Shown here one piece after another: positions 9,570-14,505 of a DNA stretch of 64,000 nucleotides. The first letter of the stretch is position 1. The number at the start of each line of letters is the position of its first letter. Under the pieces are notes generated by a model, which was given only the letters and a program-made list of their open reading frames with translations, searched no databases and had not been told where the DNA came from. This DNA is from an uncultured Eggerthellaceae bacterium (GTDB lineage Bacteria; Actinomycetota; Coriobacteriia; Coriobacteriales; Eggerthellaceae). The stretch covers positions 1 to 64,000 of the forward strand of contig CAIFEB010000007.1 in assembly GCA_903789375.1 (NCBI GenBank). Reading direction: 5' to 3'. The position numbers were made by a program, and so were the translations under genes.

Positions 9570-10346
9570 GCTTCGCTCCTTGCCGCCCGAAGGCACCCCG
9601 CGCTTCCATTGCACCGGCCGGTGCCGGTGTCCGTCATAGTCTGTTTCATTATACGTGCGACGCGGGTGTCTTGAGGCAAGGCAATCGAATGAGCATGGAG
9701 GGTCTGCATCGCGGGCAGGTCATCGTAGCTCGACCCGCAAATACAACCGCATCTGCACTTGCGGTTGCGTTTGCATCCACGTGTATGCAATGGAGCGTGG
9801 TAGTGGTTTGGGTTTGAACATACGCTGCGGCGCGCAGCATCGAGGTACACGTCCGCATATGCGTCATGTAGAGGTCCATCGCGGGTCGCGTCTTCATGAA
9901 GAAGGAGCCCACGTCCTTTTCCGTTTCCCCACCCTCGTGAAGGAGGCGCTTGTGAATATGCTTGCCTTCGCCTCCAGGGCTCCTTGCCCTCATCTGAGAT
10001 GAGCTTCACAGAGGGGGCTTCGGTCTACGGACCCGGAGACCCGGAGACCCGGAGACCTCCTATCCTCTTCTCTTCTAATACTAAGAACTTAAAAATAGTA
10101 CTTTGAATTGTTGTAGTAATAAGCACGGTGGATAGGTGGATAACCAACGTTTACGCAGGTGGGTAGCCGTAAAACATCCCATTTCGAAAGTGGAGCGCGT
10201 GTCCCCTCTTTCCGCCGCATTTATCGGTAAGATTATCGCTCCCCCGGTTTCGATGGTTTTCCCACATTCGCAAAACATGCATCGACCGGTTTTCCACAGC
10301 GTCAGTCGAGGGGTCTTCGCCGGCTTCTCCGGACCTTCTCGCGCAC
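9570..10346. other. dnaA-dnaN spacer
   Basis: No gene. From left: a hairpin at 9744-9767 (CAACCGCA / TGCGGTTG) that on the minus strand lies downstream of dnaA and could attenuate transcription into dnaN; a GC-rich stretch; three to four tandem copies of the 8-mer ACCCGGAG at about 10029-10057; an AT-rich stretch 10070-10125; then DnaA-box-like sequences to 10298. Confidence 0.7.
10070..10300. other. candidate oriC module 1 (dnaA-dnaN spacer)
   Basis: An AT-rich run (10070-10125) that could serve as unwinding element adjoins DnaA-box-like 9-mers: two tandem copies of GGTGGATA (10127-10142; complement TTATCCACC at 10135-10143), TTTTCCCACA at 10257-10266, and TTTTCCACA at 10290-10298. The dnaA-dnaN gap is the commonest position of oriC in actinobacteria. 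Confidence 0.65.
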
Positions 10347-12167
10347 CTACATCTCGCGGATCAGCTGGCGGATGGTCTCAAGCTCCTCGCGTAGGTCACG
10401 GCTTTCTTTCATCTTGTCCTCGATGTTGGTGACCGAATACATGATGGTGGTGTGGTCGCGGTTGCCGAAGCTCTTCGCAATGTAGTTGTACGGCAGGTCG
10501 AGCATCTGGCGCGACAGGTAAATGGCAACCTGACGTGCGTAAACGATGTTGCGGGCGCGCTTCTTGCCGATGAGGTCGGCGTGGGAGACCTTGTAGTACT
10601 CCTCCACCTGCTTCTGGATGTCTGCGACGCTCAGCTTCTTCATGTTGCCGCCGGAGAAGTGGTTCTCCAGCAGGCGCTTCACGTCGTCGAGCGTGATGCT
10701 GTCGCTGCCGAACGCCATCATGTGGTAGATGACCTTCGTCACCGCGCTCTTCAGCTCGCGGATGTTCGAGCTCGAATTCTCGGCGATGTACATCTGGATG
10801 TCGTCGGGAATGACGTAGTCCGCGCCCTTCGTGGTGGCGTTGTACTCCTTGATGAAGCTCTTGATGATGCCGAGCTTCGTTTCCACCTCGGGCGGCTGGA
10901 TGTCGAACGTGCCGCCTGCGTTGAACCGGCTGTAGTACCGCTCGTCGATGTCGATATTCTTCGGCGCGCGGTCGGCCGAAAGCACGACCTGTTTCCCCTC
11001 GTCGGTCAGCTTGTTGAATATCTGGAACACGATGTCGAGCGTCTGCTTCTTGCCCTGCAGGTACTGGACGTCGTCGATGAGCAGCACGTCGGCGTTCTCA
11101 TACTGGTCCTTGAACGTCCGGTAGCTCGATTTGTCCTTGTCGTGCGCGACGGTGGCTTCCATGTACTTGCTCAGGAAGTCGGCAGAATCAACGTAAACCG
11201 TTTTCAGCTGGGGCATGGTCTCGGCGATGTAGTTCTGGATGGCGCGCATGAGGTGCGTTTTCCCCAAGCCTGATTTTCCGTAGATGAACAGCGGGTTGAG
11301 CATCGGCTGCCCGGGATCCTCGGCTACGGCGACGGCCATCGAGTAGGCCATGCGGTTGGAGTCGCCGATGACGAAGTTCTCGAACGTGAGCGTCGAGGCG
11401 GGCGCGTCGATGGACGAGCGGCTGGTGTCTGCGGAGGCGCTCCCGGCGATGGGGCACGCGCTTCCGCTCTGCTGTGCAGGAAGGCCGGAGCTGCCGGCGG
11501 GCGCCCCGCCGCCGGCCATTGCAGCCGCTGCGGTAACGTCCCTTTGAGCAGGTATAACGCTTGCGCTAGCGATTCCCGTTGGGGAAGAGGCCTGCACGTC
11601 TGCCGCTTGTGGGAACGTGCCTGCTCCCGCTGCGCCGACGCTCGCGAACGCAGCGCCTTTCGCCATGTCCGCTGAGCCGATTGGAGCGGCGTTCCCTGTG
11701 GAAGGGGCAGGCGAGGGAGTCGCAGAGGGCGCGAGTGTCGCGCCTTGAAGACCGGAGGATGCTTGGGTGGCGGCCGGCGAGACAGCTTGCGCGGTGCCAC
11801 CGACGAGGGTTCCCGACGTAGCGGGTGAGGAAGACGCCGCCTGCGGTGCGACGGGCGCTGCCGTTGCCGCAGCGGCCCGTCTCGCCTGTTCCATGCGCGC
11901 AGCCTGGGTCGGGTCCACTTCCACCTCGACGGTGAAGTCGACGCCGTGCAGCTCCTTGAGCGCCCGTTTGATGACGTCGGTGTAGTGGCGCTCGATCCAG
12001 CTTTTGATGAAGTCGGTGTCGGCTGTGAGCATGAGGAAGTCCTCGCTCATAGCCTGCGGCTCGAGCCGGCTGAAGAAGGCGTTGACCTGCGACGCGTTGA
12101 CGCCGTCGTAGGTCTTTACCTTCTCGCAGACCTGGTTCCATTCGTTTACGAGTGTTTCGCTGTTCAT
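10347..12167 (-). CDS. dnaA: chromosomal replication initiator DnaA
   Basis: 606 residues, longer than the usual 450-510. Domain I (about 1-85) mediates self-association; domain II (about 88-255) is an unusually long Ala/Ser/Pro/Gly-rich linker; domain III is the AAA+ ATPase with Walker A GKSGLGKTHL near residue 296 and Walker B VLLIDDVQYL; domain IV carries the DnaA-box-binding signature ending GNRDHTTIMYSV. The ATG at 12167 has a GGAG about 10 bases upstream. It sits downstream of the GHKL/winged-helix gene on the same strand, and between two clusters of DnaA boxes. Confidence 0.98.
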   Translation of the reverse strand: MNSETLVNEWNQVCEKVKTYDGVNASQVNAFFSRLEPQAMSEDFLMLTADTDFIKSWIERHYTDVIKRALKELHGVDFTVEVEVDPTQAARMEQARRAAAATAAPVAPQAASSSPATSGTLVGGTAQAVSPAATQASSGLQGATLAPSATPSPAPSTGNAAPIGSADMAKGAAFASVGAAGAGTFPQAADVQASSPTGIASASVIPAQRDVTAAAAMAGGGAPAGSSGLPAQQSGSACPIAGSASADTSRSSIDAPASTLTFENFVIGDSNRMAYSMAVAVAEDPGQPMLNPLFIYGKSGLGKTHLMRAIQNYIAETMPQLKTVYVDSADFLSKYMEATVAHDKDKSSYRTFKDQYENADVLLIDDVQYLQGKKQTLDIVFQIFNKLTDEGKQVVLSADRAPKNIDIDERYYSRFNAGGTFDIQPPEVETKLGIIKSFIKEYNATTKGADYVIPDDIQMYIAENSSSNIRELKSAVTKVIYHMMAFGSDSITLDDVKRLLENHFSGGNMKKLSVADIQKQVEEYYKVSHADLIGKKRARNIVYARQVAIYLSRQMLDLPYNYIAKSFGNRDHTTIMYSVTNIEDKMKESRDLREELETIRQLIREM

Positions 12168-12439
12168 GGGAAAGCTCTCCGGAACGATTGCCTATGCTTC
12201 AAAAAAATGCTGGTAGGAAGGGTGTCGGCTCAGCGCGGGCTTGCGAATCCGCAAAGCGCGATACGTGAAAGGTGCGCATTGCGGAAATCGTGCCGCGCGC
12301 GGCGAGCGGAACCGCAACCGCGCAGGCCCGAACCACGCGCACCGTTGGGCTGCCGTCTCCGATTCCGGGACTTTCAGCCTTCGCCCGGCGCGCCCGCGGC
12401 GTCGTGCGCCCGTGCGGCGATCTTCGGTCCTCATCCGCG

Positions 12440-13336
12440 CTACCTGATGTTCTCCGCTATCTGGCGCCCGTACTCCGTCAGCTCGCGCTTCTGGTTGGAC
12501 GTCTTCAGGATAAGCCCCTCCTCCTCGAGCTTTTTGAGGACGTTGTACGTGCTCGAGTTGGGCGCGCCGGTCAGGTTGGCGATTTCGGTCACGCCGAGCG
12601 CGCCTTCGTTCAGGAACAAAGGAAGGAAATCGCGTTCGCGCGGCGTGAGCGGGGGCATCGGGATGTTTGCAGGCTGTGTTCCCTGTGTGCCGAATTCCCT
12701 GGTCGGGGTGCTGTCGGAGCCATGCTGACTCCTGTGTTCGGCGGATGTGCCGTCGTCGGAGCCTCCGCTTTGCCGGGCTGCTTCTTCCTGCTTCTTCGCG
12801 TGCGCCTCGGCGCAGCGCTTCTCGTCGAGGCTGATGGTGATGACCGCGCCCCCGCGCACGTTGTCCTCGACGGTCAGTACGCCGTGCCGGTTGTCCAGAT
12901 AGTCACGCACGATGGGGAAACCCGATCCCACGCCGCGGATGTAGTCCTTCATCGGCTCGATTGCAGATGAGAAGCCCGGCAGCTGGACTTTGTCCTTGTC
13001 GGGGATGCCGGGTCCCTGGTCGGAGAACCGGATGGTGTTGCCACCGTCGAAGATCGACACGGTTGCCTCGATGAAGTTCGCGTGGATGAAGTTTTCGGAA
13101 ATCTCGCGGATGACCGTGTACGGAATGACGCCGCCGAGCAGTTTCGCCTGCTCGTAGATGGTGGTGGAAAGGTTCTCGATGAACTCGTCGGTGCCTGCGG
13201 GCTCGATCTTCGTCACGCGCGGCGCCGCACCCAAGTCGTCATAGAGCGCGATACGCGCGACGGCGTCGACGTATGAGAAGTCGTATGCGTAGCTGGGCCG
13301 TGACTGGGCAGTGTCCTCGAGCTGGTTGTCATCCAT
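12440..13336 (-). CDS. GHKL ATPase with C-terminal winged helix, next to dnaA
   Basis: 298 residues from ATG 13336 (MDDNQLEDT), which has AAGGAAGG upstream; a longer frame from 13402 lacks one. Residues 70-172 form a histidine-kinase-type ATPase: N box IREISENFIHANF (N82), G1 DQGPGIPD (106-113), G2 GVGSGFPIV (135-143). There is no histidine phosphoacceptor domain, sensor or membrane segment, so it is not a normal sensor kinase. A charged linker (172-228) leads to a winged-helix domain (230-298) with LTPRERDFLPLFL and a wing-like EEEGLILKTSNQKRELTEYG. It lies 272 bases upstream of dnaA on the same strand and borders the main DnaA-box cluster. A role in controlling initiation or dnaA transcription is inference. 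Confidence 0.8.
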   Translation of the reverse strand: MDDNQLEDTAQSRPSYAYDFSYVDAVARIALYDDLGAAPRVTKIEPAGTDEFIENLSTTIYEQAKLLGGVIPYTVIREISENFIHANFIEATVSIFDGGNTIRFSDQGPGIPDKDKVQLPGFSSAIEPMKDYIRGVGSGFPIVRDYLDNRHGVLTVEDNVRGGAVITISLDEKRCAEAHAKKQEEAARQSGGSDDGTSAEHRSQHGSDSTPTREFGTQGTQPANIPMPPLTPRERDFLPLFLNEGALGVTEIANLTGAPNSSTYNVLKKLEEEGLILKTSNQKRELTEYGRQIAENIR

Positions 13337-13409
13337 CGGTTTCCGTGCCTTCCTTGGGAAAGGATGTCGATTTTCATGCAGACCATTGTAGCGTCTTTCC
13401 AACTTTCCA

Positions 13410-13985
13410 GAGGGTTTTCCACTTTTATGGGAAAACTTGCGGGGAAAGGTGGAAATTCATGAAAACGCGAACGCTCGGTGACGTGGAGTATTCCACGTAT
13501 TCCACCAATGTTTCAATAAAAGTGGAAAACAATGAAACACGTAGGTGAAAAACTGAAAGCGATGCGGGCGCATTGTGGGGAATGTGGATGGAACACTTGT
13601 TCAGACGGCTTGCGAAACCCCTGTAGAGCGCCGTGTCGACAGGTGTTTCCCACTGCATTGGGAGGCTTTCCGGAGGCGGTCGAAAACTCCGTCGCGCCGA
13701 GGCTGATTCGCAAGCCCTTCGTAAAACCCCAGGTCAGAATTGTGACAATTGTAAAAGCAAATGATAAGCGCAGGTGAGGGGCTTCCCTGAGCTCGTGTTC
13801 GCCCACCCAGGGCCGGCGAGTCGGATCTGAGAATATCCACCGCTCGCAACGCGGCGAGCTGGAGTTATCCACTTTTTCCACCGTCAAAGCCCCGCTACGG
13901 TGAATAACGGTGGGCATTCGGATATTCACCGTAGTGAAAATTCACGTGGTGGAAAGGCTTTCACCGCCCGACGTGGAAAAGGCGC
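13410..13985. other. candidate oriC module 2 (DnaA-box cluster)
   Basis: At least nine 9-mers close to TTWTNCACA: TTTTCCACT 13415, AGGTGGAAA 13447, AGTGGAAAA 13521, ATATCCACC 13833, TTATCCACT 13865, TTTTCCACC 13874, GGTGAATAA 13899, GGTGGAAAG 13948, CGTGGAAAA 13972. Both orientations occur, and palindromes such as GTGGAGTATTCCAC (13483-13496) and GTGAAAATTCAC (13934-13945) are interspersed. The position at the strand switch, beside dnaA and rpmH, supports origin function. Confidence 0.75.
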
Positions 13986-14086
13986 GGCCGATGATGGCGC
14001 GTTCGGCAGCGGTCGCTTCCCCAAAGCCGAGGGAGCTGCCGCCGACAAGACGGCCGATGATGGCACGTTCGGCAGCGGTTGTTTCC
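13985..14086. repeat. pair of 36-bp direct repeats
   Basis: Copies at 13985-14020 and 14051-14086 share CGGCCGATGATGGC, then CGTTCGGCAGCGGT, then TTCC, with only three or so differences and a 30-base spacer. The second ends in TTTCCACC, another DnaA-box-like string. Confidence 0.85.
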
Positions 14087-14191
14087 ACCTTCGAATTGCT
14101 TCCCCTTTGAGCGCTCTCTTGGAAAACGAGGGGCCGTACCCGATCGCGCTTCCACGTCGAAAGCGATGCCGACAGTGTCAGCGTTTTTCTC

Positions 14192-14360
14192 GAACTAACC
14201 GGGCGCACGTGCGCTTCTGTCCGTTTCGTTGATGCGAAAGCGTCGGTGCCCCAGAACGAACCGGGCGCACGTGTGGCGTTGCCCGTCTGGTTGATGCGAA
14301 AGCATAGGCGCTCCGGAACGAATTGGGAGCACACGCGCCGCTGAATGTCTGGTGCGCTGT
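14192..14360. repeat. 62-bp tandem repeat, about 2.7 copies
   Basis: Units begin GAACTAACCGGGCGCACGTG (14192), GAACGAACCGGGCGCACGTG (14254) and GAACGAATTGGGAGCACACG (14316), with exact 62-base spacing. Units one and two both contain TTGATGCGAAAGC at the same offset. As 62 is not a multiple of three, it is not a coding repeat. It ends just before the rpmH promoter. Confidence 0.85.
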
Positions 14361-14438
14361 AGATGCGAGCCAGGCCGCCGCAGGGTATGCGCCGCACCCC
14401 TTGTCTCGTGAGTGTATTTTGTGATGTGGATTTTTGTA

Positions 14439-14466
14439 TTGACGTGGGATGATTCGGCTTTATAAT
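14439..14466 (+). promoter_or_regulatory. rpmH promoter
   Basis: TTGACG (14439-14444) and TATAAT (14461-14466) with a 16-base spacer, 39 bases before the rpmH start; a strong sigma70-type promoter for the ribosomal/RNase P/insertase operon. Confidence 0.8.
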
Positions 14467-14505
14467 TGGTTTTCGCTCTGCAAAAAGTAATGAAAGGGAA
14501 TACAA

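Follow-up and report, generated by a model that had tools for sequence, protein, structure and literature searches.

Analysis of a 64,000-nucleotide stretch of DNA from an uncultured Eggerthellaceae bacterium (the window) and of related genomes revealed that the gene next to dnaA, given the working name QRY (12440..13336, minus strand), encodes a 298-aa protein in which a GHKL ATPase domain is joined to a C-terminal winged helix, and that its relatives are likewise found beside dnaA and oriC. With a probability of about 0.58, we interpret QRY as an ancient origin-linked regulator that binds DNA under the control of ATP, acts at oriC and/or the QRY-dnaA promoter, and tunes replication initiation and/or dnaA expression. 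Support for this reading comes from the protein architecture, the conserved ATP-site residues, the single copy, the linkage to oriC and dnaA, the operon-like spacing and the DnaA boxes upstream of the gene; nucleotide binding, the dimer switch, DNA binding, the target and the sign of regulation are parts of it that we infer.

The open reading frame proposed in the initial annotation is real and runs exactly as described there, from an ATG at 13336 to a stop at 12440; the start codon is backed by close relatives, whose proteins begin with MDNQIE (MDDNQLE in the window), and QRY is present as a single copy in the genome to which the window belongs. The protein comprises a conserved N-terminal segment (13121..13273, minus strand, approximately aa 22-72, ARIALYDD..APRV..) modelled as two strands and a helix, a GHKL/HATPase_c domain (12818..13120, minus strand, aa 73-173) with N, G1 and G2 boxes and a catalytic-type Glu78, a variable, low-confidence linker (12650..12817, minus strand, aa 174-229) and a MarR/TrmB/IclR-like winged helix (12446..12649, minus strand, aa 230-297). 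In Collinsella and Enorma (L013-L018), the linker from the ATPase to the winged helix is expanded, being very long and rich in Ala, Pro, Gln and Tyr. Pfam matches of QRY were HATPase_c (1.7e-9, aa 73-173) and, at aa 241-281, HTH_IclR (4.9e-7) and TrmB (1.1e-5), with no HisKA, sensor or membrane domain; across 18 members of the family only HATPase_c and winged-helix matches were obtained, with no phosphoacceptor module and no match to an anti-sigma Pfam family at E<=0.001. No NCBIfam family scored above its cut-off (spIIAB, at E 0.022, was far below it), and searches of PHROGs, NCBIfam and PDB sequences returned generic domain matches only. In the AlphaFold model (18 sequences; mean pLDDT 77), the winged helix is predicted with confidence, the linker with low confidence, and the ATP lid of the ATPase domain poorly; with this model Foldseek retrieved histidine-kinase ATPase domains, MarR/MntR-type winged helices and DIP2311. 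The C-terminal winged helix reported earlier is upheld by both Pfam and Foldseek.

Regarding the ATP site, all three boxes named in the initial annotation, N (E78..N82..H85), G1 (D106-Q-G108-P-G110) and G2 (G135-V-G137-S-G139), were found and are conserved in 120 non-redundant family members, in which N82, H85, D106, G108, G110, G135, G139 and G152 are invariant. QRY belongs to the GHKL superfamily by these boxes and by its Bergerat-type fold match, and it also has the winged-helix fold, which is retained in very distant members (G290 in 119/120, L270 in 116/120). In GyrB/MutL and in SpoIIAB, catalysis depends on a Glu at the N-4 position; in QRY this position (E78, relative to the N-box Asn N82) is Glu in 118 of the 120 members, whereas all six ordinary kinases with an alignable N box have Asn there. 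Sensor histidine kinases (PF02518 HATPase_c; EnvZ, CpxA) have the Bergerat fold and the G1 and G2 boxes in common with QRY (fold matches 4kp4 and 4biz), but QRY lacks their HisKA, sensor and membrane parts, differs from them at N-4 and is set apart by a gap in bit score. Since its best Pfam model is the histidine-kinase ATPase family, one could read QRY as an orphan histidine kinase in decay that acquired a DNA-binding domain and now serves no role; this is highly improbable, as the motifs are invariant over 120 divergent members, the N-4 residue is not the kinase Asn and the gene is retained across deep lineages. The lack of a phosphoacceptor His, sensor or membrane segment noted in the initial annotation is in keeping with the Pfam results, the active site is also unlike that of kinases, and judged from its sequence, with the N-4 Glu of GHKL ATPases, QRY is not a decayed histidine kinase.

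The N-4 Glu is shared with GHKL proteins of the MutL/GyrB/SpoIIAB type (E-[IV]-x-E-N-x-I-H-A in QRY, E-L-V-E-N-S-L-D-A in MutL), and MutL is the top PDB sequence match for the single QRY protein, the similarity being weak; QRY has no transducer or endonuclease domain and carries a winged helix instead. A search of 58 genomes from one other phylum gave a top score of 54 bits, which belonged to an anti-sigma-like ATPase that is not a QRY, a DRTGG-ATPase protein in a hydrogenase cluster (L204) with the QRY-like motifs DQGPGI and GAGMGLP, from which QRY differs in fusion partner and gene context. This match, the N-4 Glu as in SpoIIAB-type and GyrB-type sites and one species in which the winged helix is missing are consistent with a protein-protein switch, in which QRY would serve as an anti-sigma kinase (SpoIIAB/RsbW) or as an adaptor binding or phosphorylating DnaA or another partner, the winged helix being mainly a dimer or targeting module; we regard this as distinctly unlikely, since QRY matches HATPase_c and no anti-sigma Pfam family, the winged helix is otherwise kept and no partner was identified. 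The C-terminal fold is shared with MarR/MntR/TrmB-type regulators and with the pNOB8 centromere protein AspA (Foldseek target TM approximately 0.4-0.67), from which QRY differs by the attachment of the winged helix to an ATPase and by its locus and partners. DIP2311 (PDB 3lmm) was matched by Foldseek over much of the QRY chain (E 2e-4), the overall TM-score being low (0.34, rmsd 22.9). Proteins of this type presumably join a winged helix to a divergent GHKL-like domain, which would give the pairing in QRY a precedent; unlike QRY, we take them to carry an AlbA_2 domain and not to be linked to an origin.

Of 300 Coriobacteriia genomes searched with the single sequence, 284 gave a QRY match at E<=0.001, one per genome, and 119 of 125 genera were represented; these totals include a few ordinary kinases, which are among the weakest matches. 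A profile (A2) built from 39 diverse members separates QRY from ordinary kinases, and in the 60 genomes with no or weak single-sequence match it identified three true members (205-273 bits), everything else scoring 48 bits or less. Among 397 Actinomycetota genomes, the profile search found QRY in 158 at E<=1e-16, at essentially one place each and in many deep lineages other than Actinomycetia, including one family that we take to be Rubrobacter; the phylum-wide matches, down to approximately 25% identity, again lie between rpmH and dnaA in the families examined. No relative was found in plasmids, phages or viral contigs. The distribution of the family far exceeds what the initial annotation had guessed.

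In the window, the minus strand carries QRY, dnaA (10347..12167, minus strand, 606 aa), dnaN and recF in this order, with 272 nt between QRY and dnaA (12168..12439, minus strand), and beyond the spacer at 13337-14505 the genes rpmH, rnpA, yidC and jag lie on the plus strand. The initial annotation had placed QRY directly upstream of dnaA with an oriC-like spacer behind it, and indeed dnaA is next downstream and the spacer behind QRY is rich in DnaA-box cores. Among 141 distinct QRY loci, 127 have dnaA inside the stretch, and QRY adjoins dnaA and oriC in all 127, far beyond Coriobacteriia; a scattering of relatives away from dnaA, which would have spoken against the proposal, was looked for and did not emerge. 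In 125 of these loci, QRY and dnaA share a strand and QRY is the gene immediately 5', and in the other two, both of one genus (L222, L223), the two genes diverge across the oriC spacer; three locus rows labelled 'rpmH 3p, dnaN 3p' reflect no real arrangement but the extension of ORFs from stop to stop.

Three gene orders occur within the window's own family (rpmH<-oriC QRY->dnaA->dnaN; dnaN<-oriC QRY->dnaA->rpmH; rpmH<-QRY oriC->dnaA->dnaN), and the 5' end of QRY faces oriC in every arrangement read. In many own-family loci dnaN-recF lie across oriC, the order varying (L002, L004, L005, L012, L213, L220), and dnaN is also found 5' of QRY (L003, L031, L033, L040, L044-L046, L048-L050, L052, L053). 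The own-family orders are most simply explained by the inversion of a whole block, either oriC-QRY-dnaA or oriC-QRY. Such inversions favour a link in cis between QRY and oriC and are not decisive, because the same pattern would arise from a promoter located within oriC: the QRY promoter apparently lies in the oriC spacer, so that selection would act against inversions separating QRY from oriC even if the protein acted elsewhere.

The gap between QRY and dnaA has a median of 19 nt over 112 loci and is at most 150 nt in 107 of them, the 272 nt of the window being the maximum, so that a common QRY-dnaA transcript is likely in most loci. The read-through implied by these short gaps also suits the main rival of an origin or dnaA regulator, namely that QRY is an operon passenger, an ATP- and DNA-binding regulator of genes elsewhere (in an energy or stress response) that is kept beside dnaA only by the position of its promoter in the oriC spacer and by the read-through of dnaA from it. 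We consider this rather unlikely: the one-copy linkage is kept across the sampled deep lineages, no relocated copy was seen in the loci read, and in the genus in which dnaA was parted from QRY the latter remained at oriC.

The oriC-type spacer between QRY and rpmH (13337..14505) contains 10 TTCCAC cores (0.8 expected; maximum of 5 in 100 shuffles) and a single 9-mer within one mismatch of TTATCCACA; the initial annotation of this spacer as the main DnaA-box cluster therefore stands for box cores and fails for perfect boxes. A second small group of DnaA boxes (TTATCCACC, TTTTCCACA) is located downstream of dnaA (10128..10298). Approximately 100-300 bp upstream of QRY, many lineages have a conserved inverted pair of DnaA boxes, of which the window's copy, TATTCCAC-N16-GTGGAAAA (13498..13529), is a DnaA-like pair 162 bp from the QRY start codon. 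With a gap of 8-20 bp, the pair was detected in 31 of 38 own-family loci (4.7 expected) and 35 of 74 other loci (2.1 expected), the gap being mostly 16 bp, near -200, in the own family and 16-17 bp elsewhere. In the Rubrobacter-like genomes the element plainly consists of three DnaA boxes, TTATCCACA..TGTGGATAA..TGTGGATAA (L097-L105, approximately -120 to -140). Judged by its geometry, conserved over deep lineages, the inverted pair is possibly the core of oriC, and the resemblance of the upstream elements to DnaA sites makes control of the QRY-dnaA promoter by DnaA plausible.

Enrichment of k-mers upstream of QRY recovered DnaA boxes (TTTTCCACA, TTATCCACA) and a tandem DnaA-like word, TTTTCAACA / AGTTTTCAAC, and nothing else. 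The word occurs in 9-bp tandem with TTTTCCACA upstream in own-family loci, e.g., at -545/-536 in L041, and may be a low-affinity DnaA box or the site of another protein. As a candidate QRY site, AGTTTTCAAC was not accepted, being absent from nine QRY-less spacers but from the window too. Likewise, the inverted pair is absent from nine QRY-less spacers, but the strict pattern misses the 16-17 bp pair in three of seven QRY-positive genomes of the same genus, and a tie between the pair and the presence of QRY was therefore not accepted. Neither k-mer enrichment nor alignment revealed a QRY-specific binding motif upstream of the gene, the conserved elements looking like DnaA boxes, and in one clade a promoter-like TACAAT box and a conserved leader lie between the DnaA boxes and QRY; both observations fit a passenger gene as well.

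Tolerated losses of QRY also fit a passenger. Of 30 genomes selected for a missing or weak QRY match, 16 also had no DnaA match, which probably reflects an assembly gap, and 14 had one, which was weak in at least one genome (G318). Reading of the loci revealed dnaA without QRY in G163 and G231 (both of the own family) and in G009, G012, G021, G030, G062, G132, G140 and others, and two contigs that merely end at the expected QRY site. Two members of one own-family genus lack QRY and keep the oriC spacer (L195 7555-8313, L197 7618-9056), and their sister species retain the gene, forming a natural comparison set. The loss of QRY beside an intact dnaA implies that it is dispensable in some lineages and not essential for initiation. 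One species, represented by two records of the same sequence (L012 5190-5651 and L027), encodes a QRY that keeps the ATPase part and has no winged helix, the 3' end of the gene overlapping dnaA. Overall, the initial annotation's proposal of a candidate ATP-sensing regulator of replication initiation or dnaA expression is partly supported; the losses beside dnaA and this truncated form temper it.

As such an origin-linked regulator, QRY is predicted to bind, and may hydrolyse, ATP through its N-terminal GHKL domain, which would act as a nucleotide-controlled dimerization switch, and the winged helix would bind DNA, most likely the oriC/promoter region driving QRY and usually dnaA. How far QRY occupies the origin, the QRY-dnaA promoter or both would depend on the nucleotide state, and dnaA expression and initiation would be tuned accordingly. 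It is possible, if doubtful, that QRY is a dedicated ancient origin-binding protein whose ATP-fuelled GHKL dimer clamps or bridges oriC DNA by the inverted pair and so gates DnaA assembly. Known regulators of oriC or DnaA (Soj, SirA, YabA, Hda, SeqA) possibly share with QRY the role of tuning DnaA or oriC activity; to our knowledge none of them is a GHKL-winged-helix protein or has an architecture in common with it.

The domains of QRY are of known kinds; the libraries and open literature covered here yielded no description of the family, the pairing or the origin linkage, and the initial annotation, too, knew of no characterised protein with this pairing at an origin. A survey of origin unwinding (PMC8287927) does not mention the QRY-carrying lineages in its main text.

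There is a real chance that QRY represents a new class of initiation regulator. What is known of initiation control comes largely from E. coli, B. subtilis and Caulobacter, and the gut Coriobacteriia (relatives of Eggerthella, Collinsella and Slackia) are nearly unstudied. A single-copy protein whose gene has kept its place by the origin in deep lineages, with fixed ATP-site residues, offers a direct genetic handle, and natural controls are provided by sister genomes without the gene and by one species lacking the winged helix only. If QRY does clamp the origin, it would constitute a class of initiation regulator unlike Soj, SirA, YabA, Hda and SeqA, lost where lineages do without it.
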